Assembly: GCF_025698545.1 (NCBI RefSeq)
Contig: NC_068573.1
Location: 10,811,874 to 10,875,873 of the forward strand
Reading direction: 5' to 3'
Origin: Gossypium raimondii
Taxonomy: Eukaryota > Streptophyta > Magnoliopsida > Malvales > Malvaceae
Length of the DNA stretch: 64,000 nucleotides
Shown here piece after piece: positions 8,035 through 62,367 of the stretch. The notes below the pieces were generated by a model that did no database searches, was not told the origin of the DNA, and was given only the letters and a program-made list of their open reading frames with translations. The translations under genes were made by a program, and so were the position numbers. Within the stretch, counting starts at the first letter, position 1, and every line of letters starts with the position of its first letter.

Positions 8035-9905
8035 TTAAAAATTTGCTTCAGTAGTTGGCAAAGCCACTGTAGTTTGAAATGTCGCTTTCCAACTAATGAC
8101 ACAATTCCCAAAAGAAAATAGGTAACCTGTGAGAGACCTTCTTCGATCTAAGTCTCTTGCATAATCAAAATCAACAAATCTTACTAGACCCTTTTGAGTT
8201 CTTCCAAACTCTAAGCACATGTTAGAAGCACCCCGTAAATATCTGAAAATCCACTTAACTGTATGTCAATGTAACTTACCAGGATTTGCCATGTATCGAC
8301 TAACAACACTAACAACATTTGAAATATCTAGACGAGTGTATACCATTGCATACATCAAACTTCCAACTGCGCTTGAATATGGTACTTTTGACATATACCT
8401 TTCATCTTCTTTTTTCTGTGGGGAATCTGAAATTGAGAGTTTAAAGTGTGTAACTAAAGGAGTACTTACCAGTTTTGCATTTTGCATCTCAAATAGTTAA
8501 AGGATCTTCTTGATGTACCTTTGTTGCGATAAAAATAATTTCCTAAAATGTCTATCTCTCAAAACTTCGATCCCAAAATTTTCTTTGTTGTACCTAAATC
8601 TTTCATCTCAAACTTAGAGTTAAGCATGATTTTAATATGATCAATTTCAGATGGATTATTAGCCGCAATTAACATATAATTAACATAAAGCAGTAAATAT
8701 ATAAAAGAACCATCATCAAGACATTATAGATAAATACAACAGTTATACTTACTTTGAGAAAAACCAATACTCAACATGAAGGAGTCAAACTTTTTATACC
8801 ATTGCCAAGGATACTGCTTCAAACCGTACAATGACTTTTGTAAGAGACAAACATGATCTTTTTTACCTTTAAATTTAAAGTGTTCTGGTTGTTGCATGTG
8901 GATGTCCTCCTCAAATTCACCGTGAAGGAAAGCATTCATTACATCTAACTACTTTAACTCAGGATTATTTGATGCAATAAGGGCCAAAAGTGCCCGAATG
9001 GACGTATGTTTCACAATGGGAGAGGAAACATCTTGAAAATCAACTCCCTCCATTTGGCTACAGCCCTTTGCAACCAGTCTTGCCTTGTACCTAGTGTCGT
9101 TAGGACCCGAACCTTCTTTCTTTTTAAACATTCATTTGCAACCAACGATTCTTTTACCAATGGGTGGTTTAACTAGCCTCAAAGTCTCATTCTTTTGAAG
9201 TGATTCCATCTCTTCTTCCATTATAATGAGCCATTTGCTAGAACCGGAGGCTTGAACTACCTTACAATAACATGAAAGATCAGTTGAATCAATGCTCTCG
9301 GTAACACTTAGAATATAAGCCACTAGGTTTCCTTCACTGTATTTCTGTGGTGGTCAAATTTCTTGCATTTTCCTGTCACGAGCCAACTTATAATTAGTTA
9401 ACTGAGATGGTGAAGATACCTAAGGATTGGATGGAGCTCCAACTAGATTCGAAATGACTTCAAACAGGTAAGAATCAGAATTTTGTTGTGCTGTCGCGAA
9501 GTCGTGTGACTCTTCGTCGGGACAAGACCTTTTTTTGCCGCGTTGTTACGACGTTGAGATTTGCTCGTCAGGACATCACTCCCTATTTCAATTTTTGACT
9601 CTACCTTGCTTGAGACACTCTGATATATTGTGTCTTTAAAAGTAAAAGTCCTCTTTTCTAATCGAAACATGGTATATTCATCAAATGTAACATCTCTTCT
9701 AACAATTATTTTTCCAAATTCTGAACACCATAACTTAAAACATTTTGTACCGACAGAGTATCCCAGAAAGATGCATTTAATGACCATTGGTTCGATCTTT
9801 CCCTGTACAAATTTAGCATAAGTAGGACAACCGAAAATTCTAAGGTTAGCATAATTAGTAGGATTACCTGACCATATCTCCTTTGGAACTTTATCGTTCA
9901 ATGCT

Positions 9906-11379
9906 TGATGGGCGTCGAAACCACCAAATATAAATTCCTACGACAAGATAACACTAAATAGTAGTATAGAGCAGTAGGGTCGAACCCACAGGGACTAGTT
10001 ATCCAATTTCGCCTTTTCTCGTGACTAGAATTACTGTCACTGTCATAGTCGTGCCCACGACCTGTGCGTAGCAATACTAAAAAATGAAAAGGGGGTTTTA
10101 GTTTATAAAGATAATAAAATAAATATGTAATGTAATAAAATGAACACATATTCAAAATTGCAAAAATAAATCTTAAGAAAATAAAATAAATGGGAAAATA
10201 AAATATTTTAAAGCTTAGCCTTAGCCTCGATACACCCCGAACTTGAACCGATCCTTGAAAGAAGGTTTTTTACTTCCAACCGATAAGCTAGTTATAGCGA
10301 TCGAGGATGCCTCAAACCACTCGCTTTTCCTCTTGTAGTCTATTCTGGTACAACCTGCAAATCGACCCTTGTCGAATTTCTAACCACGTGGCACATGCCC
10401 GTAATTTAAGACTTCGACAACCTTGCGATCTGAAAAGCCCAACTCAAATCAACAGTCTCAACTGTGTGGGTTGTTTAAATTCGATCACTATCTCCCTTGA
10501 TGGAATCCAACTAGCTTTTCCTACCTGAACACGCCAACTTGTTCGCGAGATTTTGAATACAGCACGACCGACTTAACTTCCCAATTGTACGCCAAATGAT
10601 TCCAACCCAACGCGCGCTTTTTGAGTTGAAATTGAATCAACTTTAAGGGACGAATTTGTACTATTCCATATATCGGAGGGATAATGAATATCGAATTACA
10701 AAGTATTTAGTGTAGGTTCCTATCTCACGATTACTTTGTCGGAGCGATAACTGGATTAAGTCTAAAAAGGTGATTAGTTAAGCATGAAATTAATCATGAT
10801 AGATGGAGTATAGAAATAGCTTTTTAATGGAAATGGTGGAAAGTGAAAAAGGGAAAGGACTTGGAAGGCAATTTAGCCAAAATGCTAAAAATGGAAAAAG
10901 AATGGCAGAATGTCAAATTCACTTACACATGAATAAAGAAAATAAAGGAATTGTTTTTATTCAAAAAGCCAAGTCTGCCTAGTAGTTATAGCCACCAGGT
11001 ATTCATACATACTTCTAAGGCTAAAACTTACTTAGATTTTTCCTAAACATTATCACTAGATAAATCAAAATTTAAAAATCAAATTTAAACTAAAGATCAA
11101 ATTTAAACTAATTACGAATCTTAACAATATAAAAAAATAAGTTGATCTTTATCCAACCAATTTCAAATATTTAATCTTTATCCAGCCAATTTCAAATATT
11201 CAATCTTTCAATTTACCCCTTATCTTTGCTTTTTGTTCCAATTTAGCCCATTTTTATATGATTTTGAATTTCAGCACACCAATTTCATTTCTAATAAGAA
11301 AAACCAAATTTAGTAGCATCTTATTCAATAATTAGCCAAAAATAAATACATTAAAAAGAAAAAAATTATCTTGCTATCA
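9906..11379. mobile_element. Solo LTR nested in copia integrase, 5-bp target repeat
   Basis: A 1,474-base insert opens with TGATGGGCGTCG and closes with TTGCTATCA, so it has TG...CA ends with a 4-bp inverted TGAT/ATCA. It is flanked by the direct repeat ATGCT (9901-9905 and 11380-11384). Removing it and one repeat copy restores continuity with the related copia element at 31240, which has no insert at the matching spot. It contains the phrase gggtcgaacccacaggg (9977-9993), a motif I have seen often in plant repeats. There is no gene inside, so a solo LTR is the simplest reading. Confidence 0.8.
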
Positions 11380-11384
11380 ATGCT

Positions 11385-13370
11385 CGATGAGGAGATCGAT
11401 TTACCAAATAACTTTCCAGGTTTACGGCTTCAGCCCCAAATTCTTTCCCTAAGCCTGCATTAGAAAGTATGCATCGAGCCTTTTCCAACAATGTTCTGTT
11501 TATTTTTTCTGCAGCTTTATTCTACTACGAAGTTCCAACAACGGTTCGATGTCTTTCGATTCCTTCCTGTTTGCAAAAATCATTAAACCCTGAAGAACAA
11601 AACTCAAGACCATTATCCGTTCTCAACCGCTTCACGAATTTTTCGGTTTGTTTTTCTAATAGTGCCTTCCACTATTTGAAGATTCCAAAGACGTCGCTTT
11701 TTTGTTTCAAGAAACAAACCCAAATTTTTCTAGAATGATCACTAATAAAAGTTAGGAAATATTTATTACCTCCTTTTGAGATGTCAGAAGATGGACCCCA
11801 TAGATCAGAATGAATGTAATCTAGAATCCCTTTTATTTTGTACACTGCTGAATCGAAATGACTCAGGTTTATTTCCCGAAAATGTAATGCTCGCAAAAAC
11901 CTAACTTACCAAATCCAGCGTCTTTGAGAAGATCTCTATTGCACAAGATTGTCATACTTTCTCACTCATATGACCTAGTCGCATATGTCAAAGTTTGGTT
12001 GAATCAGAATGGATGGAGAAAGAGTCATGTTGTGTCATCGCGGCATCAGGTTGATTCTTGTCGCGACGTGATGGTGATTTTGGCTTTTCTTCGATAATCA
12101 TAGTTGCATCAATAATCGTTGACCTTTGCAGAACGTATAGGCTACCATTTTTCTATCCTCTCATCACAAGAATAGCCCCACAAGAAACTTTTAACTCTTT
12201 TGATTCAATGCCTATCCTGTAATCGTTAGAATCCAAAATTCCTAATGAGATAAGATTTTTCTTTAAATCAGGAACATACCTGACATCTCACAGTGTCAGA
12301 ATAATTTTGTTGTGCATCCTAATTTGTATTTTTCTAATTCTAGATATTTTACATGGAGAGTTATTCCCCATCAGCACAACTCTATCTTCAATTGAACGAT
12401 ACATGGAGAACCAGTCTCTGTTGGGACACATGTGATAGGAGCACTTTGAATCTAAGATCCATTCAAAAGTAAGATGAGAGCTTTCGCTCGTTGACACCAA
12501 CAAGAAATCATCATATCTGTTCTCGGCTACACTAGCATTAGTAACTTCGGCTTTCTGCTTATCTTTCTCGTTGTTTTCGACATCCCTTTTGATTTTATTT
12601 TGAAGTTTCCAACATTCTTTCTTAACGTGACCTACCTTTTTACAATAGCCACAATATTTGTCATGATTTCTGGATTTGGACCTTGCTTTAAACTTGTTTC
12701 GATCTGTCTTTCTGGTTTGTTGTTTGCCTCTTGCAACTAGAACTGAGGCTTGCCTGTCTGATTTTTCATTTGGGCCTAACTCATTGTTGATTTTATCCTT
12801 GCTCAAAAGATTCCCCTCCACATCCTCAAACGAGAGATTATCTCTCCCATAAATCAGAGTTCTCCTGAAAGTTTTATAAAAAGAGGGTAAAGAGTATAAC
12901 AACAATATAGCTTGATCCTCGTCACTAATCTTTACTTTAAGATTCTTTAAGTCATTAATAAGGGTAACAAACTCACTAATATGAGTTCTAATAGGCTCAC
13001 ATTCGGTCATTCTGAATATGTAAAGGCGTTGTTTTAATACAAACCTATTGACCAGATATTTCGTCATATATAAGGCTTCTAGTTTCTTCCATAACACAGA
13101 CAGTATTTTCTCCATCAGAACCTCTTGTAACACATTATTCGTGAGGCATAATTGAATAACGGATAGAGCCTTCTCATCAAGCTCTTCCTATTCTGGCTGA
13201 TCCATATCTAGGGGCTTCTTCCTTGTAACGACCTTTTTCAAACCGTTCTGAACTAGTATTGTCGTCACCTGAACTTGCCATAAACTACAATTTGTAATTC
13301 CATCGAACTTCTCAATATTGAACCTTGACGTTGCCATATCCGAACGGGTTGATTGCCAAAATTGAACTAG
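11385..13370 (-). pseudogene. copia gag-protease-integrase N-part (fossil)
   Basis: This is the minus-strand coding part of the 8035-13795 element to the right of the nested LTR. From right to left it shows the gag N-terminus (FDGITNCSLWQVQV near 13290), the UBN2 gag body (12560-13133), the zinc knuckle, the aspartic protease neighbourhood, the pre-integrase region and the integrase core start (LDYIHSDLWGPS near 11790-11830). It is not functional and carries several lesions. Confidence 0.8.
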
Positions 13371-21860: not shown

Positions 21861-21989
21861 TTACATGATATTTGGTTCGCTGTAATCAGTATGCCATTAC
21901 GCCTCTATTCCGTGGCCTCACCTATTCCGTCGTTTGGTTGGTGTAATGCCCTATTACGGGCTTATTACATTACCCCCTATTCCGTGCAA

Positions 21990-24523
21990 TCTGCTGCTTT
22001 CTATTCCCGAAGGACAGCTCAGTTTTGCTTTCGTTTTGTTTCTCCCAATTTCTTCTGCCCTGTTTTACCCTCCCAACCCGAAAGCCACCTCCACCCTCTC
22101 TCCCTCCCAACATCAAACAGAACCGCCCCTTACATTTTCCTTCTTCTGTCCCGTCAAATTTTCTGCTTGTTTATTGTTTAAGCTCCAGGAAAATCGAAGA
22201 GGCCTTATCATTTTCGAGTTAGAACTAGGGCTCTGACAAGGTTTTTGATCTCAAAATTTTGACAAGGTTGCCTGTAAGTGGGGGTGTTTCTTTAACTTCA
22301 AACCTTGCAAATTGAGTCTCTTGTTTTGACTTTCTTGTTTGGTTCTTGATTAGGTCTCAAGATTTCCTTGATCTCCATCCTTTCTGGGTATGTTTTGAAT
22401 TCCTTTTTGTCTGAAACTTGTAAAAAACAGTGTTTGCTTTTACCAATTGCATTGGTTTATTGATTGATTTTAATGGAAATTGAATGGTGTTGTTTGGTTT
22501 TATTGAAATATGGATCCCTTTTTGCTCATCCTTTCTGTATGTCTTCGATTCTTATATGGCTCCAACTCTTCATTTTTCTTGAAATTTTCGTGTTCGACAT
22601 GTTTTTAGACATGGGTTTGGGGTATCAAACATTTATACCCGAATCTGAGCAACATAGCTTTGATGTGCCTGTGATAAAATTTTGTGTGTTTTATGTAGAT
22701 TTTCTGAATAGACTTTTTAACTTTGATGCAACATATTCTTGCTTAATTTTGGATATTCCGTGGACTTTTTTGTTCGGTTCTTGATTGGCGTCAACTTCGT
22801 TTGCAGTAATTCTTGATTTTTAGTTTATACACATATGCGATACAGAACAGTTGCTGCATTCATAGGCTTCCATAGGCTTATGCAAGGCTCTTGTTTGCAT
22901 TCATAGGCTTCCAAGACAAATTGATGAACAGCTTGGTAAACTGATCATAATATGGGAATTCTCTTCTTTTGCTACTGAAATGAAATTTAGTCGTGTATAT
23001 ATTGGTTGTGCCATAATTTGTTTTAAGGAAACTTCACAAGTTAGTTGATTCATTTATTTTGATCCCAATGAACCTTTCCTTCTTTTTCGTGCCCTTTTTT
23101 CCCAGATCTTCCATATTTTCCTTCTTATTTCTCCTTTTCCCAGTCATAGAAGGTTACTATTGAAGTGTTAGGAAAATATTTACCAGAACAACCAAGAAAA
23201 AAAAGACTGGTCTTGTTTCACATCAGTATAAGAAGTAGAGCAACTTGAGTTTGTACCTGTGTTACTTATGCTCAAATGTGTTCCAACACATGTATGTTCA
23301 ATTTTCTATAATTTCCATGTATATGTGTTGGAAATAGATGTCGGACACACATATTTAAAGAATAATGAAGAGTTGGAGTAATGTAGATTTTCACTTGGTT
23401 GAATTCAGAAGTGTTGTTTGGTTTTGGAGAGATTTTCAAATTTTAACATAAAATTACTGATCAATACTTCTGCGAAGAATTATGACTTTTAAAGGCTTTC
23501 TTTGTGATCCATAAACATCACCACTTCTTTCTAAAAATTTGCAACGAGTGGTTTGGAGGGTTATTAGAGGCTGATTTAACATAATAAATTCTTGATTTTC
23601 ATTTCATCATCATTTTTATCAGAATAGCTTGGTAGTTTAGTCTTCATTTAGCATTTAGGAAGGCAATTTCCTTGATGGGCTCAGGAAAGGAATGGCGATT
23701 TGGAGGTCTTTTAGCATTTGAGAATTCACTTTTATTGGTTATTTGAATTTCAGCCCATGGAGATGTTAAATAAAAAATGACTTTGCACCTTCTTAGCTAT
23801 GTCTTTCACCTTCAAATTATAAGTCTGATGGAGGAATATAATCCAAGAAAGTGGCATGCTTTATCTTTGAAGGTCGTAATTTGAGAAGTTCTTTCTCATT
23901 TCTTGAACCCTATTTAGCGTACCATTTTCTTGGGCATGGCCAAAGTATCTGTTTGAGGCTCCACTAATGAAGTGAAATGTGAAGGGGTATTGCTGAAGGC
24001 AGTGATGCATGATTTGCCTATTATGATCTCATATATGGCATTACTGAGTGAAGCATGCTAGTGAGTTTAATAGCCTTTAAGACATGCTACAAGTTCTCTT
24101 GAACATTTGTCTCTTTCTGTGGTAAGCTTGAGCCTTATTTCTAGTGGTTTGTCTGTCACTGGTTTTCTCTCCTCCTGCCAGTGGTTATTGCTTGCTCTTA
24201 CTATTTCCGAAAGTAAACCTCTCATAGAGTTTCCTTTCTTATGCTTCATGTGCTGCCAAATGTGTGAGTGCCTGGATAGTTTTACAAAACATTTTATGAT
24301 GCCTAAAGTTGTAATACTGGACTTGCGCATCACAATTAACAACAGATCTTCAGCTTCATGTTTTTTCAATTTTACCTTCTTTTTTTCAATTGTAATACTG
24401 GACTTTTGCATCACAATCCATGGAACTTTTCTATTCTGCAGATAAAGCCAATCCCAAGTGAAAATCTGCCTCCTGGTTTTGATCCCGTTGAAGGTTGCAA
24501 GCTTAATTCTTTGCCTCTAGAAG
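21990..24523 (+). pseudogene. Captured UBP1-like gene fragment (leader, intron, partial exon)
   Basis: The exon-like 24442-24523, flanked by CTGCAG and GTACCT, reads IKPIPSENLPPGFDP then VEGCKLNSLPLE. The first part closely matches IEPIPSGNLPPGFDP of plant UBP1 oligouridylate-binding RNA-binding proteins. VEGCKL matches a spot about 30 residues further on in the same first RRM (GPVEGCKLIRKEK), so the intervening part is missing, with CC microhomology at the join. Upstream, 21990-22260 looks like a plant 5' UTR (C/T-rich, then short introns) and 22270-24440 like T-rich intron. The usual Gln-rich first UBP1 exon was not seen. The family names come from memory. It lies between transposon end and transposase, so capture by the element is likely. 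Confidence 0.6.
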
Positions 24524-24529
24524 GTACCT

Positions 24530-25700
24530 TTTTTTGAAGCAATGTAGGAATGGGATAGCAATGTAGGGTGTTGGATTTATTTTTTCTTAATCAATTTATA
24601 TATATATGATTTTGAATTCGGTTTTATTTAAAATATTTATTTTGATTTTAATTTTAAATTGATTTCTTCGATTTTACCTTAGTTTAATATAGTTGGAGTT
24701 TTTTATTTATTATTGAAAAGAATTAAAACCACATTGATAAACTAACCAATTTTCCTAAAACAATTTACTTTTACCTCGACTTTAAGTGTGAAAAACGACA
24801 AAACACTATCGAAGTCCATTCATTTCTTTTCGTTAAAGTAAAACTTTTATTTATGCTTCATACCTATAAAATTATAGTAGATTGAAACCCATTAAATTGA
24901 GATTTTTTATCACCCTAATTGCGTCAATTTATCGTACATTTTATATATATTGAGAGAAATTTATGCTTAAAACCTAAAATATGGAACCATCTAAGTTTTA
25001 GTAAATTCCTATTTTCTTTTGATATATGAAAATAAAAAATTTAGTTCCTACAAATATATAATCTTTCATTTTATGTATGTTTAAAATATAAAATTTTAAT
25101 AATATAAGTTGGCTACTTAACTCAATTCTATTTTATAATTAAAAATGTCATGATTTTGATAGTATAAGAAAGATAATAAATAAAGGTTCCATTTAAAAGC
25201 ATGATATAAGAATATATATATATAAATAATATCATTTTATAATTATGATGTTTAAAATATGCTTTTATATATATAATAGTATGAGTTTGAATTTTTTATT
25301 TTAATTGACGAGAATATTTTGTACTTGTTATAATTATAAATTTAATGAGATATCCTTTCATCAAGTCGTAATGAAAAAATAATTAAATTTCAAGATTTTC
25401 CCTCTTCTTTTTTTCCCTTTATCAAGCTGTAATGAAACAAATATCCATATAAAGAAATGAATTTTAAGTTGCAAAGATAATTTTAATTTCTATTTTTTGC
25501 CTCGTAAAGATTCTAAATTTGTATTGCTATTTTTTCTTTGATAGTGTGTTATTGCTTCCTATTGAAGCGACTTGTTTGATTGTTTCCTCCACCCACAGTT
25601 GAGCGTCTTCTTTTCACACAATCACTGTAAATTTTTTGGCAATTAAATTATTTAATTTTATTTTACTGTTTTTTGGCAATTATGATTGGAACACATTAAT
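24530..25700. other. AT-rich interior of the Harbinger element
   Basis: Between the captured exon and the transposase the sequence is AT-rich with no recognisable coding or repeat content beyond short TA runs (24598-24606, 25213-25223). It is read as the transposase 5' flank within the element. Confidence 0.4.
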
Positions 25701-25711
25701 ATCTTGCAGTA

Positions 25712-27118
25712 ATGGCTCGTCTGCCTTTAATTGCACAAAGTGTGAGGCGTATAAGAATTGGTATTGCATTGACAATATGGTTGCAAATCTGTAGAATTGC
25801 GAGTTGGTTCTTATTTACATTGGGTGCCAGCCATAGCCTACATACTTTTAGACCAAGGATTAGGTCCTATATTTTAGATTTTTATGCATAACGGGATTAT
25901 GTGAAAAGGCTTATATATGCTAGTGACGAGACCTGTATTGAACAAGTTAGGATGAATAGATTTGTCTTTTTTAAACTATGTGAGATGTTACAAACGTTAG
26001 GGGATTGAAGTCGTCAAGGAACATGCTTGTTGATGAGCAAGTGGCAATGTTTTTACATATCATTTCTCATCACCTTAAAAATCGAGTTATCAAGCATCAC
26101 TTCAATAGGTTTGGGAAAACTGTTAGCAAATCATTTCATAGTGTTTTAAATGCTGTCATACGCTTACAATGTGTTATTTAAAAAGGCAGAGCTAATTACA
26201 GCTAATTCTTCAGACACAAGGTGGAAATGGTTTAAGGTATTGGACTGAGTTTTATATATAGCTTGTACATAATTTAGATAATTTAGATTTAAATTTAGTA
26301 TCCTAACTCAAGGTTTTATAACATGTGATATAGAATAGTATAGGTGCTCTTGATGGAACCCACATCAAGATTAGGATTCTAACAGTTGATAAACCTAGAT
26401 ATCGAACGCGAAAAGGTGGCATAGCAACAAATATGCTAGGTGTTTGTACACCTGATATGCAATTTGTTTATGTTCTTCCTGGTTGGAAAGGTTCTGTTGC
26501 TGATGGACGGGTTCTTCGAGATGCCATTAGTAGGAGACATGGACTAAAAGTTCCTCATGGTAAAGTGGATAGTTAGAGGACTTTGAATTATTCATTAAGA
26601 TCAAAATTTTTGTGGTGAATTAATCATTTTAAAAAAAAAGTTTTTTTTAATAGATTGTTATTATCTAGTTGATTCTGGATACACTGGATACACAAATTGT
26701 GAGGGATTTCTTATACCTTTTAGAGGACAACGATATCATTTGAACGAGTGGCATCAGGGTTATCAGCCAAGTTCTCCACAGAAGTTTTTTTAATATGAAA
26801 CATGCCTCAGCACGTAATGTTATTGAAGGATGCTTTGGGTTATTAAAACTTAGATGGGGAATATTTTGGAGTCCATCATTCTATCCTGTAAGGGTGCACA
26901 ATAGAATCATTATTGCATGTTGTTTGCTCAATAATTTTATTCGAACCCATATGAGTATTGATCCTATTGAAGCGGATGTGGGAGAAGGATTACCTAGTAA
27001 TGTGGTAGATGACGATGAACCGAATATCGTAAATATTCATCCATCAGATGCTTGGGCTATTTGGAGGATGGAACTAGCCAACCAAATGTTCAATGAATGG
27101 CAAGCATCTAGAAATTAG
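25712..27118 (+). pseudogene. PIF/Harbinger DDE transposase (damaged)
   Basis: This would encode a HARBI1/DDE_Tnp_4-type transposase that excises and inserts the element at TTA/TAA sites. The N-terminal part shows RMNRFVFFKLCEMLQTLG (25951-26004) and MFLHIISHHLKNRVIKHHF (26049-26105). After an intron (26237-26333, GT-AG) comes GALDGTHIKIR with the first catalytic Asp. After a second intron (26560-26653) comes YYLVDSGYTN with the second Asp. The last block, ARNVIEGCFGLLKLRWG (26808-26858), holds the Glu. So D-D-E residues and both introns persist. Lesions: an in-frame TAA at 25889-25891, and frame changes near 26000, 26165 and 26787-26793 (a run of T). The 107-residue C-terminal part (26795-27118) is open. 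The element thus needs transposase in trans. Confidence 0.9.
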
Positions 27119-27407
27119 TTAGGTTTAGAGACAAAATGAGTTTGAGTTAATTTATTTATGTTATTTTATGTATCTAGTTTGTGAAACTTTGGTGGTGTTT
27201 GAATTATTTTTTGTATTGTACTAAACTTGTTGAATTATAATTTAATTTCTTTTCATTCATCATGTGTTATAATTTTATACGGTGTTGAGCTTTTGATTCA
27301 TGATATTGAACTTAATTTTAATTTTATAAAGTGTTCACCTTTTGATTCATGATATTAATAGTAATTAATATAATTTGTTTTTTTTCTTAAGATAATTATA
27401 TCAGGTG

Positions 27408-28452
27408 TTTCAGAATCAAATATTTCTTCTCAAGCTTCTCGAGGAACCAAAAGGAAATGGGTTCCAGAAGAAGATGCAGCATTGGTTTCCTGCATGGTGG
27501 ACTTGCACAATGTTGGAACATTTAATGCTGATACCGGGTTCAAAGCTGGTTATTTAAACGAGTTGGAAAAAATGCTAGAAAAGGCTTCACCCAATGCAAT
27601 GTTGAAGGCTAGACCTAATATTGAATCGAGGATTAGGTTACTAAAAAGGGATTAGTCAATCGTGTATGACATGCTTAATGGCCAAAACAATAGCGGTTTT
27701 GGTTGGGACGAGCATAGGCAGCTCGTTGTTGCTGAAGATGCGGTTTGAGACTCTTATTTAAATGTAAAAATTATTCAAGTCTTTATTATCTTATTTTTAC
27801 CAAACTTATAACTAATATGATTTCCTCATTTTTATAGAGTCATAAAGAAGCCGGTCAATTCAGACATCGTAGTTTCCCTTACTACGACCAACTTACTGCT
27901 ATATATGCAAGAGATCGAGCGACTGGGAAAGATGCTCAAACAGCCGCTGATGTTATTGAAGAAATAAATGTTCAGGATGTACATACTGCGGATATTAATG
28001 AAGAAAGAAACGAATTCTATGACTGCGAAGCTGATGTCTCTTTGGATGAGATGGATGTTTCTGCTACGGAGCCGCAAACAGATAGAAACCAAGGGGGTTC
28101 CTCATCTTCAAAGAAGAAAAAAAAGAATTCTGATGCAATTGATCATTTTTCTTCTTCATTTCATGATGCTGCCACTTTATTAGTGGAAAAGATGGGGGCC
28201 ATTGGCGAACAAATCAATAGGAGTATTGCCTCCGATGTGGTAGTTCAACAAAAGTCAGAAGAATTCCAGATCATCCAAGAAAAAGCTACAAATTTATATT
28301 CAACCTTATGTGAAATAGAAGGTTTAACAGTGGATGAGCGGTATCGAGCATTGAGTAAAATTCCAGATCATCCAACTCAAATGCTCGTTTTCTTTAGTTT
28401 ACCTTCTGATGTGTGGTTGGAATGGGTCAGAAGATTTCTTGCTGACCATTAA
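27408..28452 (+). pseudogene. Harbinger ORF1, Myb/SANT-like DNA-binding protein
   Basis: PIF/Harbinger elements carry a second protein with a Myb/SANT-like domain that binds the element ends and helps bring in the transposase. Exon A (27408-27742) encodes RGTKRKWVPEEDAALVSCM and IESRIRLLKRD, matching the Myb_DNA-bind_3 type. An intron 27743-27837 (GT-AG) joins EDA to SHKEAGQFRH. Exon B (27838-28452) encodes SFPYYDQLTAIYARDRATG, an acidic stretch, a KKKKK basic patch and a helical tail ending WVRRFLADH. Only one lesion is visible, a TAG at 27653-27655 where related proteins have Trp (KRDWxIVYDML), so it is a near-intact copy next to a more damaged transposase. Confidence 0.85.
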
Positions 28453-28769
28453 ACTTCTTATTTCTGTTGATGATATTTTCGTAACTTTTTTTGTTTGTAA
28501 TATTTGGGACGGTATGTCATTACAATCTTCTAACTTTTTTATGTTGTAAAATTGTATAACATATGGATTATGACATAAAATTTCATGAATTTCATTTAAC
28601 CTTTTGTTAATATATGAAAATTATGTTTATGCAAAATATAATTCTCAAGTTATTTATTATCGCTAATATTTTTTATTGTAGAATAATTAAATTATTTGTT
28701 CCACTAATGATATTTTAGCACATTAAAATATGTATTACAATTTAAAAATAATAAAGTAGACTATAAATT

Positions 28770-29340
28770 ATATTTAATAATAATTATTTTAAATTATATT
28801 TTATAGTTTTATATATTATGATTTTAATAAATTCATATAAGAATATTTAATACTAAAGAATTTTATCAAATTATATATTTTATTATATTATATTTAATAA
28901 TAATTATTTTAAATTATATTTTATAGTATTATATATTATGATTTTAGTAAATTCATATAATAATATTTAATACTAAGAATTTTTTAAATTATATATTTTT
29001 ATTAAATTATATTTAATAATAATTATTTTAAATTATATTTTATAGTATTATATATTATGATTTTAGTAAATTCATATAAGAATATTTAATACTAAGGATT
29101 TTATTAAATTATATATTTTTGTTAAATTATATTTAATAATAATTATTTTAAATTATATTTTATAGTATTATATATTATGATTTTAGTAAATTTATATATT
29201 TTATTAAATTATATTTAATAATTATTATTTTAAATTATATTTTATATTATTATATATTATGATTTTAGTAAATTCATATATTTTATTAAATTATATATTT
29301 TATTAAATTATATTTAATAATAATTATGTTAAAATATGAT
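28770..29340. repeat. AT-rich ~120-bp tandem array inside the Harbinger element
   Basis: A unit of 119-120 bases containing tatttaataataattatttt ... tattatgattttagtaaatt recurs from about 28771, 28891, 29010 and 29130, followed by shortened units near 29211 and 29311, roughly five to six copies. The unit is almost pure A/T. The same array in opposite orientation, with about ten units, occurs at 62620-63830. Confidence 0.85.
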
Positions 29341-29594
29341 TAAATTATTTATTATTTATATTAATAATCTTATTAAAATTTAATAACAATAATCATCTAC
29401 CTAAAAAAAATTCTGCTAAGGGTATTCTAGTCATTTTAGTTTTTTCCTTATGCTATTATAACATCATTCTATTCAACCAAACACAAGAATACCATTATGC
29501 CTCTATTCCATTCCATTCAACCAAACAAAAGGATTACCTACGCATCTATTCCATTACACCTCTATTCCATTACAGCGAACCAAACGTGCTCTTA

Positions 29595-30000: not shown

Positions 30001-33000
30001 TTACATGTTTACTACAATATGAGCATATTTCCCAACATCATCAATATAAAGCAGCAAATATATGAATGAACCATCATCAAGACATTGTAAAAATACACAA
30101 TTGTCATGCTTACTCTGTGAAAAACCAATACTTAACATGAAAGAATCAAACTTTTTGTACCATTGCTGAGGAGACTGCTTCAAACCGTACATGATTTTTA
30201 AGAAGGCAAACATGATATTCATTTCCTTCAGTTCTAAAGCCTTTCGATTGCTGTATGTATGTGTCTTCCTCAAGGTCATCATGAAGGAAAGCAATCTTCA
30301 CATTTAACTGCTTTAATTCAATATTGTTTTATGCAACAAGAGTCAAAAGTGCCCGAATGGACGTATGTTCTACAACGGAAGAGAAAACATCATGAAAACC
30401 AACTCCCTCCTCCACTTGAATTTAGCCCTTTGCAACCAATCTTGCTTTGTATCTATTTTTGTTTGGCTCGAACCTTCCTTCTTCTTAAACACTTATTTGC
30501 AGCCAACTATTTTCTTACCGATGGGTGGTTTTACTAGCCGCCAAGTCTCATTCTTTTGAAGTGATTTCATCTCTTTTTTCATAGCAACAAGCCATTTTCT
30601 AGAATCAAAGGCTTCAACTGCCTCGGAATAGCATGAAGGATCGGTCGAATTAATGTTCTCTGCAACACTTAAAGTATATGCCACTAAGTTTCCTTCACAG
30701 TACTTCTATGGTGGTCAAATTTCTCGCATTTTCTTGTCATGAGCCAACTTATAATTAGTTAACTGAGATGGTAAGGGTACCTAAGGGTCATATGAAGTTC
30801 CAAACGGATCCAAAATAGTTTCAATTTCGCAAGAATTTGGATTTCTTCGTGTTGTCGTGACGTCGCTTGCTTCCTCGTCGAGACGTTGCAACAAGGCTTT
30901 TCGTGTTGTTATGACGTCACCCCCTATTTTGGCATTTAACTCCTCCTTGCTTGAGACACTCTAATTTGTTGCATCTTTAAAAATAAGTGACTTTTTTTCT
31001 GATCAAAACATGACAGATTCATTGAACGTGACATATCTGCTAACAATAGTTTTGTTTGTTTCTGGACACCACAGTTTGAAACCTTTTGTACCGGCAAAGT
31101 AACCCAGATAAATGCACTTTACGACCCTTGAATCGAGCTTTCCCTAGATAACTTTAGCATAAGTAGGACAACCGAAAATTTTAAGATTAGAATAATTGGG
31201 AGGATTACCTAACCAAATCTACTCTGGAACTTTACCATTCAATTCTTGATGTGGAGGTCGATTTAACAAATAGCTTGCCAAATTTACGGCTTCAGCCCAA
31301 AACTACTTTCCTAGTCTTGCATTTGAAAGCATGCATCAGGCCTTTTCCAACAAGGTTCTGTTCATTATTTCTGCAACTCTATTCTGTTACAGAGTACCTA
31401 GAACGGTGCGATGTCTCTCTATCCCTTCTCGTTTGCAGTGGTCATTAAACTCAGATGAACAAAACTCAAGTCCATTGTCTGTTCTCAACCACTTCATAGA
31501 CTTCTCGGTCTATTTTTCTAACAGTGTTTTCTACTACTTGAAGATTCCGAAGATTTTTTTCAGAAAATAAACCCAAACTTTTTTGGAATGGTCATTAATA
31601 AAAGTTAAAAAAAATATTTATTACCTCCTTTTGAGATGTCAAGAGTCGGACCCCATAAATCGAAATAGACGTAGTCAAGAGTCCTTTTTGTTTTGTGCAC
31701 TGCTGAATCGAAACTTACTCCCGTTTACTTCCCACAAGTGCAGTGTTCACAAAAACCTAACTTACCAATTCCAGTGTCTTCTAGAAGACCTTGTTTGCAC
31801 AATGTTGTCATACAATGTTGTCATACATTTCTCACTTATATGACCGAGTTGCATGTGCTAGAGTTTAGTTGAACTAGAATCTGTAGAGAAAGAATCACGT
31901 CGCATCATTGCGACGTCAGGTTGGTTCTCATCCTGGCATGGCAACGATTTTGGCTCATCTTCAGTAATTGCAACCGTACCAGTAACCGTTGACCCTTGCA
32001 AAATGTATAGGCTGCCCTTTTTATGTCCTCTCATTACAACGGGAGCTCCATAAGACACATTTAAGCCATTTGACTCAATGACTATTCTGCAAGCATTAGA
32101 ATCCAAAATTCCCAACGATATGATATTTTTCTTTAAGTCGGGTACATACCTGACATCTGACAGTGTTCAAATAATTTCGTCGTGCATCTTGATTTGTACG
32201 ATTCCTATTTCGATTATCTTACATGGATAATTATTCCCCATTAACACAACTCCACCTTTAACTGAACTATACGTGAAAAAAAAGTCTCTGTTGGGACACA
32301 TGTAATAGGAGCATCCTAAATATAGGATCTATTCAGAAGTAAGCTTAGAGCTTTCACTCGTCGACACTAACAAGAAATCATCACCTTTATCTTCAACTAC
32401 ACTAGCATTAGCAACTTTGGCTTTTTGCTTATCTTTATCGTCGTTTTCGACATCCTTTTTAATTTTTTTGAAGTTTGTAGCATTCCGACTTGATGTGACA
32501 CTTCTTATTGTAGTAGTTGCATTCTTTGTCTCAGTTTCTGGATTTAGATCTCATGCTAGACCTATTTTGATCTGGCTTTCTGGATTGTTGTCTACCTCTT
32601 ACGGCTAGAACTGAGGTTTGCCCGTTTGACCTTTTGTTTGGGCCTAACTCGTTCTCAAGTTTATCCTTACTTAGTAGTTCCCTTTTTACGCCCTCCCCAT
32701 AACTAAAAGTTTCTCTGAAAGTTTTACAAAAAGAGGGCAAAGAACATAACAATAACATAGTTTGATCCTTGTCTCTAATTTCTGCTTCGAGATTCTTTAG
32801 GTCATTTAGAAGGTAACAAACTCACTAATATGAGCTCTAATAGAGTCATCTTCAGCCATTCTGAACATGTAGATACGTTGTTTTAGCATTAACTTTTTGG
32901 CCAAGGATTTCGTCATGTACAAAGCTTCTAGTTTCTTCCATAATGTAAAAGTTGTTTTTTCCTTCAAAACCTCCTGTAATACATTATTTGTTAAACATAA

Positions 33001-33792: not shown

Positions 33793-36338
33793 CCTATGAT
33801 TCAAAACTCTAGCTACTTCACACATAGTGCAAGTCTCAACCATAGAAACCTCAAACAATTAATCATAATCAAATTGGTCGCCAATCCTATACAACTTGAA
33901 GATTGCAGCTTCAAAGGAGAACAATAGCTTAGAAGCTCAAAGGTGGAGACGTTGATAAACTCAAGGGATCAACTTTAAGGTCTCTAGTGCATTTTGTTGA
34001 ACGCAATGTAGGCAAGAAACTGTAGCAAGTTTTGGATAACCAAGTTAGATGATATCCAAATGAGGAGAAAAAAGATGGTCCAAACCAAGAAAAAGAAACT
34101 AAAAAAACAAGACTCTGGACAAGGGCTCGGGGGAAGACGAGACAAGAGCTCGTGGACAAAACTTCTTCTTGTTTTGTAAATAATATTTGAAAACCTAATT
34201 TTATTGCATGACATATCAATTTTTTTGGATTTTGTGGGTAAAAAAATATAGCATTTAAATTTTAATACTAGACTAGATAAAATGCCAATATCATGCTATT
34301 CTATGTTTTTTACATAATTTAAAAAATATGTATACCATGGAAAATTAATTTCCAGATTTTATTGCTCCTCCTTTTATCATTTCCCTCTAATTATCTAATA
34401 TATTAAGTTATTAATTAAGATGGTGTTATAAGTCAATCGAACACCAATTCGGTTGGGTAATGATTAAAATATCATTGTTTTACAAAATAAATTATATTAT
34501 TTTAAAGATACTTTTATTTTTTTATATCTTATATGTAAAAATTAGAAAAATAGAGACACATAATGAAATTTAAACATTAGACACCATAGCTTTTAACATC
34601 TTTGCTTAACTATTTCAACTGAACTCTTATTTGTTTTTTATATCAACATGTTTAATTGGGGGAAGGCTATTCAATTCCCCCACTTATTACATATGTAACA
34701 ATAATTCGTTTGTTTGGATTTGAATTCTATTCCATTGAATGAGTTGTTCAACAATTTCGTTGAATAGTCAAACTCAAGGATAACATCCTAAATAGGATCA
34801 AAATCTTTAACATCATTTTAACCCCTACGACCCTCCACTATCAATCTTGTTATTGTTAATTTTCATATAAGCCAACATCTACCGTCTTTTCAAAAGAATG
34901 AAAATGAAATAGATAAAAGTAATAGGAAAAGCTTTTGTTATTGTTAATCATTTTTAACATGGTTAACCACATAAAGATAAGACAAAAGGGATAAACTAAA
35001 GAGACATATCAAATCAAATAAGGAAATTTTGAACCCAAAGTTTTGGAAAAAATAAAATTTTAGATCTTCTTTTGGATTTATAAAAAGAAACTATGCATTA
35101 AAAATCATATTGAAAAAAAATGATAAAAAAAAACAAATAAGAACCAAAAACCAATCATGGTGGTGGGATGAACTACAATGCTAAAATTTGGGGAGGGGAG
35201 AGAAATGAGATAAGAGAACATTTTAGCAACTTTATATTTTTAAGCGTAAAATATGAATTATATATAATATATTTAATTGTTTCGACTATAATATATTATT
35301 TGGTTGCAATCAGAACATCCATCATTGATAGCAATGACTAATTCCTTTGTCGTGGGTGTTCTTTGAAGAGGTAATCGGTTGACTATGAAATGTACTCTAT
35401 TTCCATTGGCAAAAATCAAATTGCCCATGGGTCTGGTTGAGGCTTAGTTTCAAAAAAAATCCATGTCCAAGCCCACTTTTGGATTGAGGCAGCTCGCCCA
35501 AAAAACTTATTTTATTGTTCCAATAATAATAAAATATTAAAAAAAATATTTTTAATTGATATTTTATATATTTTACAATTAAATTTAAATTTTAAAATAT
35601 TTTTATTATTTAAATTGAACTCCAACTCAGCTTGAAACACAGATTTTTTTTGTCCAAATTCAGTCCAAGTCGAGCCGAATGAGCTACTCGACGCTTGGAC
35701 AGATTTAGGCGATGATACTATATAATATTTATAGATCTTAATTTTTCATACAATATTTTTATTAATATACATTTTTTTTTATTTTTTATCGAATACAATT
35801 CAAATTTATTTAATTATGATATAATAATATAAATGTATTATCGATTAGTTAATTAAATTTATAATTTACATATTCCTAAAATCATTTTATTTAACCAAAC
35901 AATTCGATTTTTTTGCCATTAATCTATTCCTTATTTATTTCATTCCTACGGAATAACCATCCCATTCGTATTTTCTTTCAGTTTAGGGAACCAAACATAC
36001 TATAATTTTATTTTTTTAGTGATGGGCATCTTTCAAATTTATGATATATAGAGTGGGCCTCTTTTATTTTCTTTTCGGTTCTTAAATTTGTTAATTCGAT
36101 TGGGCCTTTATTCATTCTTTCGCAAACTCTGATAACCTAAAATTTTAATGTTCAATTAAGCAAATTTCAAATCAAATAAGTCAAAGTTTGGAGAATTATA
36201 AGAATTCGCTTTGAAATTAATTTGGGCATTTTTAAGAACAGTATTTTCCTCATTTTTTGTTGCCGCCATTGTTAGCACTTGAAGCTCTCCCTTTTCTTCT
36301 CATAAATTTTATTTTGCTTTCATCAGAAATATCTGCCC
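33793..36338. other. Intergenic DNA between copia remnant and NBP35
   Basis: No gene is recognised. The minus-strand ORFs at 33929-34219 are short and unlike known proteins. 34430-34470 (gtcaatcgaacaccaattcggttgg) and 35410-35700 (gcccatgggtctgg, agctcgcccaa, gtcgagccgaatgagc) resemble scattered plant MITE/repeat phrases. 34700-34760 and 35880-36005 both hold 'tttgtttggatt...attctattcc' / 'attcctacggaataac...ggaaccaaacat' ends and could be the two sides of a decayed TIR element. The last 150 bases form the NBP35 promoter and leader. Confidence 0.4.
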
Positions 36339-38496
36339 ATGGAGAACGGAGAAATCCCAGAAAACGCCAATGAACGTATGTTTTCTCAGTCAATTTTGTG
36401 GATTACTTTTTTTTATATAGTTTATTCATTTTCTTCATTCCTCTTCAGATTGTCCGGGTCCTCAATCGGAGTCAGCTGGTAAATCCGATGCATGCCAAGG
36501 TTGCCCTAATCAAGAAGTTTGTGCCACCGCCCCTAAGGGCCCTGACCCGGGTTTACTCTTTCTTTCCAATATTTTCATTATATTTTCTAAGTTTGGGTTT
36601 TATTTTGTTTTTTCATTAAGTATTATTACTTTCATGGTGATCTGGTGACTTGTTTTTGGTAGCTAAAATAGAATTTATGGTTTCTTTAGCATGTGAAGCC
36701 TTATTATTTCTTTCTTTTTGTTCGAAGCATATGAAGCTTTACCAGAGAAAATAGCAGCTGTTGTAGATGTCACCAGTATGGTTCTCTCATAATCGATTGG
36801 AGCTAGAATTTGTTAATAACCTTTAGTGGTGATGGAGCTCTTATGTTTTCAATGATAAGTTATTGCTTCAAAAGTTCTAGTATTGTATGTTAGGGTAGCT
36901 TACTCATGAAGTGGGGTTGAATAGCTTAGCACTTTAATTGGAATTTCGGATCTTGTAGGAGATTGGAATTAGTATTAGATGATTTCGGATATTGACTCTT
37001 CGACATTCATATGCTATGGTGGTAGTTCAATAGTTTTTTAGTATTAAGTTGTATTGCATATACTAGTGCATCGGGTCTTATCTATACGAGGGCTTTGACT
37101 TTTGACACGGTTTATCACCCTTTAACTGTTCCATGTTTTGGTTGTCCTTGTAATTTCATTTCATTATTTTCACACTTCTTGATTTAAATTTTGATAATGG
37201 TCTGTAAAAATATGCTCTCTTATAATTGCTTTAACTGTCTAAAGCTCAATAGATTTTACCTCATATATTAATGAGGAGAACTGTTTGCAGTGAACATATA
37301 TGCCATAAATGAGAAGTGATGAATTCTTTTGGGCTATGTAACTTGCTCTGTCCATTTTAGTTGCTATGTTGTTTTTTTCCTTTTTCATCTGTTCTATTTT
37401 ATATTTGGCATGTTGTGGGTTTTATATGGAAGGATTATCATCTATCTTTGTATGGCTATATAGTTTATGAAACATAAAGTTCTTTGCTTCTTTCCTAGCT
37501 TGACCATGTTATCCAGAGTATGAATCTGTTATTGGACATACTAATATTTATAATGCTTTGCATTTTGCAGACTTGGTTGCAATTGCAGAGAGAATGGCTA
37601 CTGTTAAGCATAAGATACTGGTTTTATCGGGGAAGGGAGGGGTTGGCAAAAGCACTTTCTCTGCCCAACTCTCATTTGCACTAGCAGCTAAGGATTTCCA
37701 GGTGGGTCTACTGGACATTGATATTTGTGGTCCAAGCATTCCGAAAATGCTTGGCCTAGAAGGTCAAGACATTCACCAGAGTAACCTTGGCTGGTCCCCT
37801 GTTTATGTTGAGTCCAACCTTGGCGTAATGTCAATTGGGTTCATGCTCCCCAACCCTGATGAAGCTGTCATTTGGAGAGGACCGCGTAAAAATGGGCTCA
37901 TCAAACAATTCCTTAAAGATGTATACTGGGGAGAGCTTGATTTTTTGGTTGTTGATGCCCCTCCTGGGACCTCTGATGAGCACATCTCAATCGTTCAGTT
38001 CCTACAGGCTACTGGGATAGATGGAGCTATCATCGTCACTACGCCGCAGCAAGTCTCTTTGATTGATGTGCGTAAAGAAGTTAGTTTCTGCAAAAAAGTT
38101 GGAGTACCAGTTCTTGGAGTTGTTGAGAACATGAGTGGCTTGTGTCAGCCGTTGAAAGATTTCAGGTTTTTGAGGATGACAGAGAATGGTGAACATACTG
38201 ATCTCACAGAGAAGGTTATTGAGTATATGAAGGAGAAAGCACCTGAAATGCTAGATCTCATTGCTGCCAGTGAAATCTTTGATAGCAGTGGTGGTGGTGC
38301 AGCAAAAATGTGTACAGAAATGGGAGTACCATTTCTCGGAAAGGTTCCATTGGATCCACAGCTTTGCAAGGCAGCTGAAGAAGGCAAATCTTGTTTTTCT
38401 GAACAGAAGTGCAGTATTAGCGCTCCTGCATTGAAGAGTATTGTTGAGAAGCTGATGGCAAAGTATTGGTGTAAAGAAATGTCTGTGGAACAGTAG
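36339..38496 (+). CDS. NBP35: NBP35, cytosolic Fe-S cluster scaffold P-loop NTPase
   Basis: NBP35 is a Mrp/NBP35-family ATPase that builds and hands over [4Fe-4S] clusters to cytosolic and nuclear apoproteins. Exons are 36339-36375, 36449-36550 and 37571-38496 (GT-AG; the second intron is 1,020 bp), giving 354 aa, near the ~350 of plant homologues. The N-terminus has the ferredoxin-like cysteine set C-x13-C-x2-C-x5-C (residues about 14-37: [18 protein letters not shown]). Then come the deviant Walker [39 protein letters not shown] (Walker B) and VENMSGL. The C-terminal CPxC of yeast and animal homologues is absent; here the site reads SGLCQPL, as is usual for plant NBP35. The start is chosen at the ATG in exon 1, which precedes the cysteine motif. 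The frame is whole. Confidence 0.95.
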
Positions 38497-41771: not shown

Positions 41772-45612
<3,841 letters not shown>

Positions 45613-52816: not shown

Positions 52817-53962
52817 TCATGGCCTAGATGGATTCATAGCGAGAAGCATGTTTTGTCCACCAGGAATATATTGCACGTTGGGTGACTTAGCAAGGGTTCC
52901 AGCAATTTCCCTTGATGCCTCAATCCTCCTTAGCTCAATCAGTCCCATACCAGCAGTCAGAGTTGCTTCCGAAATTAACTTCGCAGCCTCACTTTCACCT
53001 TCTGCTCGGATAACAGCAGCCCTCCTTTCCTGATCAGCTTTCGCCACAACGTACCTCGACCGCTCTGCCTCCTGTTGTGCAACCTGTTTTTGCTCCACTG
53101 CTCTTGAGAATTCAGCACCATACGACAAGTGTGTAATCGCTACATCGGCTAGCTCAATGTTAAAGTCCCTCGCACGCTGTGTCAGTGAATTCCGGACCAA
53201 TGCAGACACTTGGGGACGCTCGGTGAGAAGCTGATCAGCATTGAACTGTGCAACCACAGCTTTCAACACCTCATTTCCAATGGAGGGAAGCACTTTCTCA
53301 TCGTACTCAAGACCAAGGCGTTGATAAATTTCAGGAAGCTTATCCACCTTTTTCGCAAAATACAACCAATCAAACAATAATCTTTAAATAACAAACTAAA
53401 CCGTAGCATTCATCAAGCATACATACATGATCAAAACTACAATGTTAGTAGAATCAGAACTCCGGTCATAGCATCAAAAAAGCCTTTTCTTTTCTTAAAA
53501 TGCAAAAAGCAAAAACCAGAACCTTCATTAACCCATTTCATAATTACATACAAAAAAGTCATGCCTAATCAAGATTTAGTTCTTCATACGTATACGTAAA
53601 AGAAAACCCATTTAATTTGAATAATAATAAAAAAAGGCTTTCTTGATTACCTTAGGTTTAGAAAGGACTCGAAGAGTGAGATTAACCATCTGGAGATCCT
53701 TGGTTCCGGAAATAGATGAGAAGGTGTGAGGCTTCATACGGATATCATAGATGAAAGGCTTCTGCAGCCATGGGACCAAAAAGTGGGTACCTTCTTCGGC
53801 CGTTTTGTCCAACACTCCTCTTAAACGATCAAAGATTACAGCTCTTTCGCCACCGTCCACGGTGTACATGGAGGCATTGAGGAGAGTTGCAGCGGCACCG
53901 AGGCCAAAAGCTGCGCGTGCGATGTTGGTTAAGAAAGACACTGCAGCTTGATTGCTTCCCAT
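52817..53962 (-). CDS. PHB3: Prohibitin (PHB3/PHB4 type), mitochondrial
   Basis: Prohibitins form ring complexes in the inner mitochondrial membrane that steady membrane proteins and respiratory complexes. In the minus direction exon 1 is 53962-53651 (104 codons) and exon 2 is 53347-52817 (176 codons and stop), with intron 53348-53650 (GT-AG), giving 280 aa versus about 277-280 in the family. The order fits the SPFH family: an N-terminal membrane segment ([15 protein letters not shown]-like, residues 10-30), [75 protein letters not shown] and the coiled-coil [15 protein letters not shown]. The start [10 protein letters not shown] is used because homologues begin there; an in-frame ATG 69 bases upstream would add an unusual basic stretch. 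The frame is whole. Confidence 0.95.
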
Positions 53963-54659
53963 TTTTCTGGAATTCCTTGTTTGATTTGCTTTCTGCCGGT
54001 TGACAGGGATTTTTGATTTTTTTTTGGGCAAGTGGGGGTTATTATTAGGGTTTATCTACATATATTTATATAGAGAGGGGCTTAATGCATATTTTAGTCC
54101 CTAAAAATACTGTTTTTCTCACTTTGGTCTTTAAAGGTTTTTGTAGTTCAGTCCCTAACGTTATTATAAGTTCATAGGTTCAGTCATTTGGATGTAAAAA
54201 AAAAAAAGATGATATATCTAACCAATCATAAAATTATAAAAAAGTAGTAATTTATGATTTACTAAATATCTCAACGGAGGGTTTCTAAGGATTGAACTAA
54301 TTGTTAACGTTAAGAATTGAAGTGGGCCAAAAAACATTTAAAGATCAAAATAGAAAAGGAAAATTACTTTAGGGACTAAAATAAGCATAAGCTATATTAA
54401 TTTTTCAATTTCACACCTAAACTTCTTTTTGTACAGCTTTAGTTCTTAAATCACCAAATACATGCTACTTGACACATTCTTATTGGGTGCTAATAAATTT
54501 TCAGATAAATAATAATTCTCTTATTAAAGTGAGAAAATAGTATAATTCAAAGGCCTAATCATAAATAAAGCCGGATTTTAAAGTGGGTTGGCTTCCTATT
54601 TAAGCGCTAAACAATGAGCCCGAATTAGCCCAAAAGGATTCCAGTTTTCTTCATCTTCC
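53963..54659. promoter_or_regulatory. Shared promoter region of prohibitin and ribosomal-protein-like genes
   Basis: The prohibitin start (53962, minus) and the leader exon of the next gene (about 54660, plus) face away from each other across about 700 bases, a bidirectional layout. Half of it is taken by a MITE-like inverted-repeat element (54080-54392). Both products are mitochondrial if the neighbour is correctly read, so co-regulation is plausible but unproven. Confidence 0.5.
54080..54392. mobile_element. Foldback/MITE-like element, 313 bp
   Basis: The left end gcttaatgcatattttagtc and the right end read on the other strand (gcttatgcttattttagtcc) are near-identical inverted repeats. The similarity runs inward for about 90 bases per arm (tagtccctaaa, ttggtctttaaa / ttgatctttaaa, cctaacgtta / ttaacgtt). 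There is no coding capacity and no target repeat that I can call. Confidence 0.65.
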
Positions 54660-62255: not shown

Positions 62256-62367
62256 TTAGCTGATTTTAGCTGTTTTTTTGTAGAGTTAATATATACAAAG
62301 GTGCCTGGACTTGACAATTTATTCTTATTTGATACTTAAGGTTTTTTTAACCAATTTAACACCTAGG
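62256..62367. other. Short spacer
   Basis: About 110 bases between the long-inverted-repeat element and the Harbinger end; no features seen. Confidence 0.4.

Follow-up and report, generated by a model that had tools for sequence, protein, structure and literature searches.

A 64,000-nucleotide stretch of Gossypium raimondii DNA (contig NC_068573.1, positions 10,811,874 to 10,875,873 of the forward strand; hereafter the window, whose numbering is used throughout) contains what is probably a single damaged transposon at 21864-29591, which an earlier note, made from the letters alone, had described as a Harbinger element that seems to have acquired part of a UBP1 gene. Two predicted transposon genes lie within these limits, a transposase followed by a Myb/SANT gene of the ORF1 type (Table 1), and Pfam searches bore out both assignments. 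DDE_Tnp_4 (PF13359) matched the transposase in two pieces with E values of 2e-8 and 1.6e-6, both above the cut-off. The motifs GALDGTHI at 26343, VADGRV at 26496, and VIEGCFG at 26819, which we take to hold the catalytic D, D, and E residues, are separated by stops and frame changes. The N-terminal stretch of the transposase (25712-26240) gave no Pfam match above the cut-off and was assigned by reading alone. Myb_DNA-bind_3 (PF12776) was recovered at an E value of 9.7e-8 when the first stop of the second gene, at 27653, was read as X; the piece preceding that stop, taken alone, fell below the cut-off (E value, 0.18), and the other stop, at 27746, may lie inside an intron. The predicted DDE transposase is of the IS5/Harbinger type and, with the Myb/SANT-like second gene, shows two of the features by which PIF/Harbinger elements are recognized.

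The outer limits proposed for the element were upheld as to the inner repeat bases and the flanking TTA. PIF/Harbinger elements are expected to have terminal inverted repeats (TIRs) of 14-25 bp at both ends; here the inner part of the TIR, TTTGGTTCGCTGTAAT, is found at 21871-21886 and again, inverted, at 29569-29584, with 16 of 16 bases identical, while 5 of the 7 outermost bases differ between the ends. Such elements are also expected to carry a 3-bp TTA/TAA target site duplication, and TTA flanks both ends, on the left just where the right end predicts it. Read inward, the left end gives TTA and then CATGATATTTGGTTCGCTGTAAT; the right TIR reads GAGCACGTTTGGTTCGCTGTAAT on the minus strand, with TTA directly outside it. 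The 17-base end motif GTTTGGTTCGCTGTAAT, when up to 3 mismatches were allowed, was found at 4 sites in the 64 kb, whereas 100 shuffles averaged 0.08: one at 21870, one at 29569 on the opposite strand, and two near 62.4 kb. Inside the left end, a subterminal stretch resembles the right arm, and its strict alignment score of 34 was equalled by 3 of 2029 overlapping windows, all belonging to one locus. When the two flanks were joined as a candidate empty site, the only strong matches were to the flanks themselves. The exact TIR pattern had 0 matches in viral and 0 in bacterial/archaeal contigs, which is uninformative as these collections are not from plants.

Between the left end and the transposase lie two short stretches that match the first RNA recognition motif (RRM) region of UBP1-type proteins. 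The yardstick for this comparison was an assumed UBP1-type protein sequence; it matched PDB chains of yeast PUB1 (E value, 6e-38) and of human-type TIA-1, with the best stretches beginning past the linker, and to the extent of these matches it can serve as a yardstick. Using tblastn, this protein matched the window at 24439-24486 with 87.5% identity (35 bits; E value, 2e-4), while 20 base-shuffled windows gave top bit scores between 19.2 and 25.8. Piecewise alignment gave a score of 74 for the first piece, equalled by none of 100 shuffles (largest, 41), and a score of 40 for the second, equalled by none of 200 (largest, 28). Residues of the linker and RRM1 that agree with the yardstick protein number 13 of 15 in the first piece, IKPIPSENLPPGFDP, and 6 of 6 in the second, VEGCKL. 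Both pieces use the same Pro codon (24484-24486), so that, measured against the yardstick protein, 29 codons are absent between them with the frame kept, and the junction offers 2 to 3 bases of possible microhomology. The 24442-24504 interval encodes two joined pieces of the RRM1 region that lack the middle part, as the earlier note had read it. A third piece, frame-shifted and corresponding to the ILSLNGRHLF region, is suggestive only: in the two intervals tried, its score was equalled by 2 and 1 of 100 shuffles and by 2 of 124 background windows each, and alignment allowing a frameshift gave no support (the score was reached in 94 of 200 shuffles for one and in 52 of 60 for another test).

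The exon containing these pieces (24442-24523) is flanked by splice-like signals on both sides, again in agreement with the earlier note. Directly before 24442 stands TTTTCTATTCTGCAG, which ranked 8th by a rough score among 162 AG sites in 22300-25900; after 24523 follows the donor-like AAG|GTACCT, scored against the splice-donor consensus. Elsewhere in the window tblastn with the yardstick protein found no other UBP1 exon, the next matches having E values of at least 3.0. A degenerate pattern for the UBP1 exon had 0 matches in viral contigs, a non-plant collection that is uninformative on this point.

Table 1. Positions of the element, its ends, its predicted genes, and the UBP1-type pieces in the window
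Feature	Position	Strand	Remark
TTA, candidate target site duplication, left	21861-21863	.	Position expected from right end
Left end	21864-21886	+	Outer heptamer CATGATA (non-matching), then inner 16 TIR bases TTTGGTTCGCTGTAAT
Left subterminal stretch	21888-21999	+	Direct (not inverted) match to right arm at 20 of 22 bases
Leader-like (5' untranslated region-like) start of probable captured segment	22000-22387	+	Left boundary not fixed
Intron-like segment	22388-24441	+	Donor-like GG|GTATGT at 22388; acceptor-like end TTTTCTATTCTGCAG at 24441
UBP1 piece 1	24442-24486	+	Encodes IKPIPSENLPPGFDP
UBP1 piece 2	24484-24504	+	(P)VEGCKL; in-frame join to piece 1
Possible third UBP1 piece	24505-24533	+	Frame-shifted; ILSLNGRHLF region; suggestive only
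Splice-donor-like GTACCT after AAG	24524-24529	+	6 of 8 consensus positions
Acceptor-like TTGCAG, then TA and ATG	25704-25714	+	TTGCAG ends at 25709; ATG opens transposase-like N-terminal frame
Damaged PIF/Harbinger transposase gene	25712-27118	+	Stops and frame changes
Myb/SANT (ORF1-type) gene	27374-28452	+	Stops at 27653 and 27746
AT-rich arm	28764-29400	.	Contains repeats near 120 bp in length, arrayed in tandem at 28764-29198
Right TIR	29569-29591	-	GAGCACGTTTGGTTCGCTGTAAT on minus strand; TTA directly outside
TTA, candidate target site duplication, right	29592-29594	.	
Second copy, same family, right arm only	62366-64000	-	Runs off window

Upstream of the UBP1 pieces, the earlier note had placed a segment resembling an untranslated region and an intron. 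This description stands as to its poverty in ATG, its pyrimidine richness, and its splice-like signals; a search of 21990-24441 for coding exon 1 of the yardstick UBP1 did not find it (score 21 vs 20 to 28 in 5 shuffles). The plus-strand gap free of ATG at 21946-22390 spans 444 nucleotides and is the third longest among the gaps between 1316 ATGs, after gaps of 595 and 451; the minus strand has one of 874. The 22010-22160 interval is 71% pyrimidine, a value equalled by 17 of 2552 overlapping windows, some of them within the stretch itself. Judged by its composition, 22000-22387 can look like a plant 5' leader. Six open reading frames of at least 80 amino acids overlap 21864-24530, and none gave a Pfam match above the cut-off, the best sub-threshold match being Wap1 (E value, 0.0014; 18.3 bits vs a cut-off of 29.1). 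Where the segment ends on the right, the GC fraction falls from 0.355 (24200-24599) to 0.228 (24600-24999), a change that favors a captured segment. This edge was also considered as a remnant of the left arm of the transposon, a candidate that was dropped as three intervals scored at chance level against the TIR arms: 24525-24580 (score reached in 70 of 500 shuffles and in 44 of the 651 background windows), 24530-24575 (247 of 500 and 129 of 651), and 24505-24545 (90 of 500 and 201 of 650). Two repeats were seen in this region. Directly upstream of the UBP1 exon is a 28-base direct repeat, 93% identical (24309-24336 and 24390-24417), perhaps a local duplication that arose during capture; within the intron-like segment is a 54-base inverted repeat, 80% complementary (22553-22606 and 23332-23385, with a spacing of 725 bases), which could be a small nested element.

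The reading that we favor, with a probability of roughly 0.62, is that 21864-29591 is a defective PIF/Harbinger element that holds, between its left end and its transposase, host DNA derived from the 5' portion of a UBP1-type gene. Directly observed are the two UBP1 pieces, the genes of the transposon, the inner TIR at each end, and the TTA on either side; beyond these, we infer that both ends moved as one unit and that the entire 22000-24530 stretch, with its intron-like segment, came from the donor gene. Under this reading, a PIF/Harbinger element would have picked up a genomic segment comprising the 5' part of the host gene. The source was probably DNA and not mRNA, as an intron-like end is retained with its acceptor. 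The captured segment would then have been trimmed, with 29 codons lost at the common Pro codon relative to the yardstick protein. Template switching or gap repair at 2 to 3 bases of microhomology may have produced this loss, the junction being of the kind that either process would leave.

Several observations weigh against this interpretation. Of the left end postulated in the earlier note, the inner 16 bases and the adjoining TTA hold, but the outer seven do not: 5 of 7 differ from the right end, so that the G(N)5GTT motif present in the right TIR and in the copy at 62366 is missing on the left. All five mismatches fall in the outer 7 of 23 bases, for which the chance would be 0.0006 if they were random. 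TTA occurs in the flanks at a frequency of 0.038, which is the chance of finding it at any one site. Under looser gap penalties, the score of the left subterminal stretch was reached in 18 of 1031 windows. The UBP1 yardstick, as stated, is an assumed sequence, and the comparison covers one insert-bearing copy in one 64-kb window.

Much of this evidence bears on whether the two ends belong together. In the main rival explanation, which we regard as possible but clearly the less probable, neighboring insertions formed a composite: a related miniature inverted-repeat transposable element (MITE) or Pack-type element on the left and a Harbinger element on the right came to flank a UBP1 duplicate, with or without later joint movement of the outer ends. 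The differing outer heptamer fits such an origin, as does the best likeness of the left subterminal stretch to the right arm being in direct orientation, and fusion of neighboring Pack-PIFs has been described (PMC8903248). Against a composite, no internal end resembling the 40-base right TIR was found in 22000-25750: the best score was 19 in 24400-25750, where 200 shuffles gave a mean of 16 and a maximum of 25, and 18 in 22000-24400, a search without a shuffle control. Also against a composite are the chance-level likeness of 24525-24580 to the TIR arms and the exact offset of TTA on both outer sides. Given these end features and the missing internal end, 21864-29591 is likely a single mobile unit. 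The identity of all 16 inner TIR bases and the TTA on both sides lower the likelihood that the left end belongs to a small MITE of other origin, a possibility raised in the earlier note; the left heptamer and the direct-orientation subterminal match speak for it.

It is unlikely that the parts are chance neighbors, namely, a truncated piece of a left end, part of a UBP1 pseudogene, and a Harbinger element truncated on its left, that were never mobile together; the altered left heptamer agrees with such an account, but it needs three independent fragments within 7.7 kb, with no inner ends detected and with TTA on both sides. Least probable is the case, named in the earlier note as one that would overturn its reading, that a Harbinger element inserted into a resident host UBP1 gene and disrupted it there: splice-like signals surround the exon, as they would in a gene, but the failure of tblastn to find a further UBP1 exon in the 64 kb argues against a gene broken at this site.

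A second member of the family, in the opposite orientation, is represented by its right arm at 62366. With matches starting in the AT-rich 28600-29420 interval, in query or target, excluded, blastn aligned it to the right arm of the element with 84% identity over 857 columns, and the terminal 215 or so bases matched separately. Global alignment gave 948 identities, 52 mismatches, and 639 gap columns, the last reflecting an AT-rich repeat array that is longer in this copy. Its outer trimer is CTA rather than TTA, and it exits the window short of the part where an insert would show.

The position of the host DNA upstream of the transposase raises the matter of whether it was ever expressed with it. 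Joining the end of the UBP1 exon (AAG|GTACCT, 24523) to the acceptor-like TTGCAG|TAATGG (25709) keeps the frame into the ATG of the transposase, and such a join could have given the element expression driven by the host gene, or an N-terminal extension derived from UBP1. We consider it doubtful, however, that a host-derived, AUG-free leader and its intron were spliced onto the transposase, as the sequence can be read. The acceptor at 25709 is unremarkable, ranking 34th of 162 by rough score in 22300-25900 and 9th of 42 in 24524-25712, and 15 of the 42 candidate AG acceptors in the latter interval give the same frame. If leader capture were true, capture upstream of the transposon genes (as in the Pifvine-3 elements discussed below) would reflect selection for host promoters and not accident, and a captured leader driving the transposase would supply a reason for the 5' position of the captured DNA. 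A literature search for host promoters in PIF/Harbinger elements found nothing.

Other features were noted elsewhere in the window. An AT-rich interval at 35870-36030 with AACCAAACA and GGGAACCAAACATAC motifs looks like the end of another Tourist-type MITE. Pieces of Copia-type retrotransposons (Pfam RVT_2, Retrotran_gag_2, and SH3-like) occur at 30001-30297, 12288-13187, 9443-9937, and 1661-2203. Host genes identified with Pfam encode a NUBP-type P-loop NTPase (37504-38496), the start of a glyceraldehyde-3-phosphate dehydrogenase (42554-43093), and a Band_7/prohibitin-like protein (52817-54055).

Several described systems share parts of this arrangement. In a survey of Medicago that requires G(N)5GTT, the TIRs of MtPH-A6-1 and A6-3 are reported to begin with G(N)5GTTTGGTTC, and one large MtPH-A6-3 element is said to have a 5' TIR that lacks its initial 8 bases (PMC2213677). 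The cotton element resembles the MtPH-A6 group in having the transposase gene before orf1, and A6-4 is described as having tandem repeats near its ends; as a point of difference, no word starting with "captur" occurs in the main text of that report (PMC2213677). Within cotton, GosTE, a PIF/Harbinger MITE of Gossypium, is said in a review to have multiplied the MIR482/2118D locus (PMC10004981). It is likewise a Harbinger-type element that carries additional genomic sequence but, unlike the element studied here, is a MITE with a microRNA locus, the comparison being by description and not by sequence; the same review names UBP1 as a microRNA target. Pack-PIF elements, described from maize and rice, have a host gene fragment between PIF-type TIRs as does the cotton element, whereas Pack-TYPE elements are defined as non-autonomous (PMC8903248) and the cotton element has a transposase gene, although a broken one.

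The closest layout is that of Pifvine-3 in grapevine, a group of PIF elements reported to have transduplicated 5' regions of up to 3.5 kb containing host exons and introns, with the insert common to several copies in some cases (Benjak et al. 2008, PMC2528002). Its existence weakens the suggestion in the earlier note that gene capture is little known for PIF/Harbinger elements that bear a transposase. As in Pifvine-3, the cotton element has transposase and ORF1 genes and a long extra 5' region, which in most Pifvine-3 cases contains host exons and introns (PMC2528002); it differs in that its host gene is of the UBP1 type and is trimmed to two joined pieces, and in that the copy is defective with an altered left end. 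This likeness is one of layout, the two having been set side by side by description and not by sequence. Among the literature searched, mostly without full texts, none named a UBP1 fragment in a Harbinger element. Since the layout is that of Pifvine-3, capture by a transposase-bearing PIF is a kind of event already known, of which the UBP1 element is probably a further case. It adds a probable instance in which a PIF/Harbinger element that bears a transposase has captured part of a host gene, the captured DNA again lying 5' of the transposon genes.

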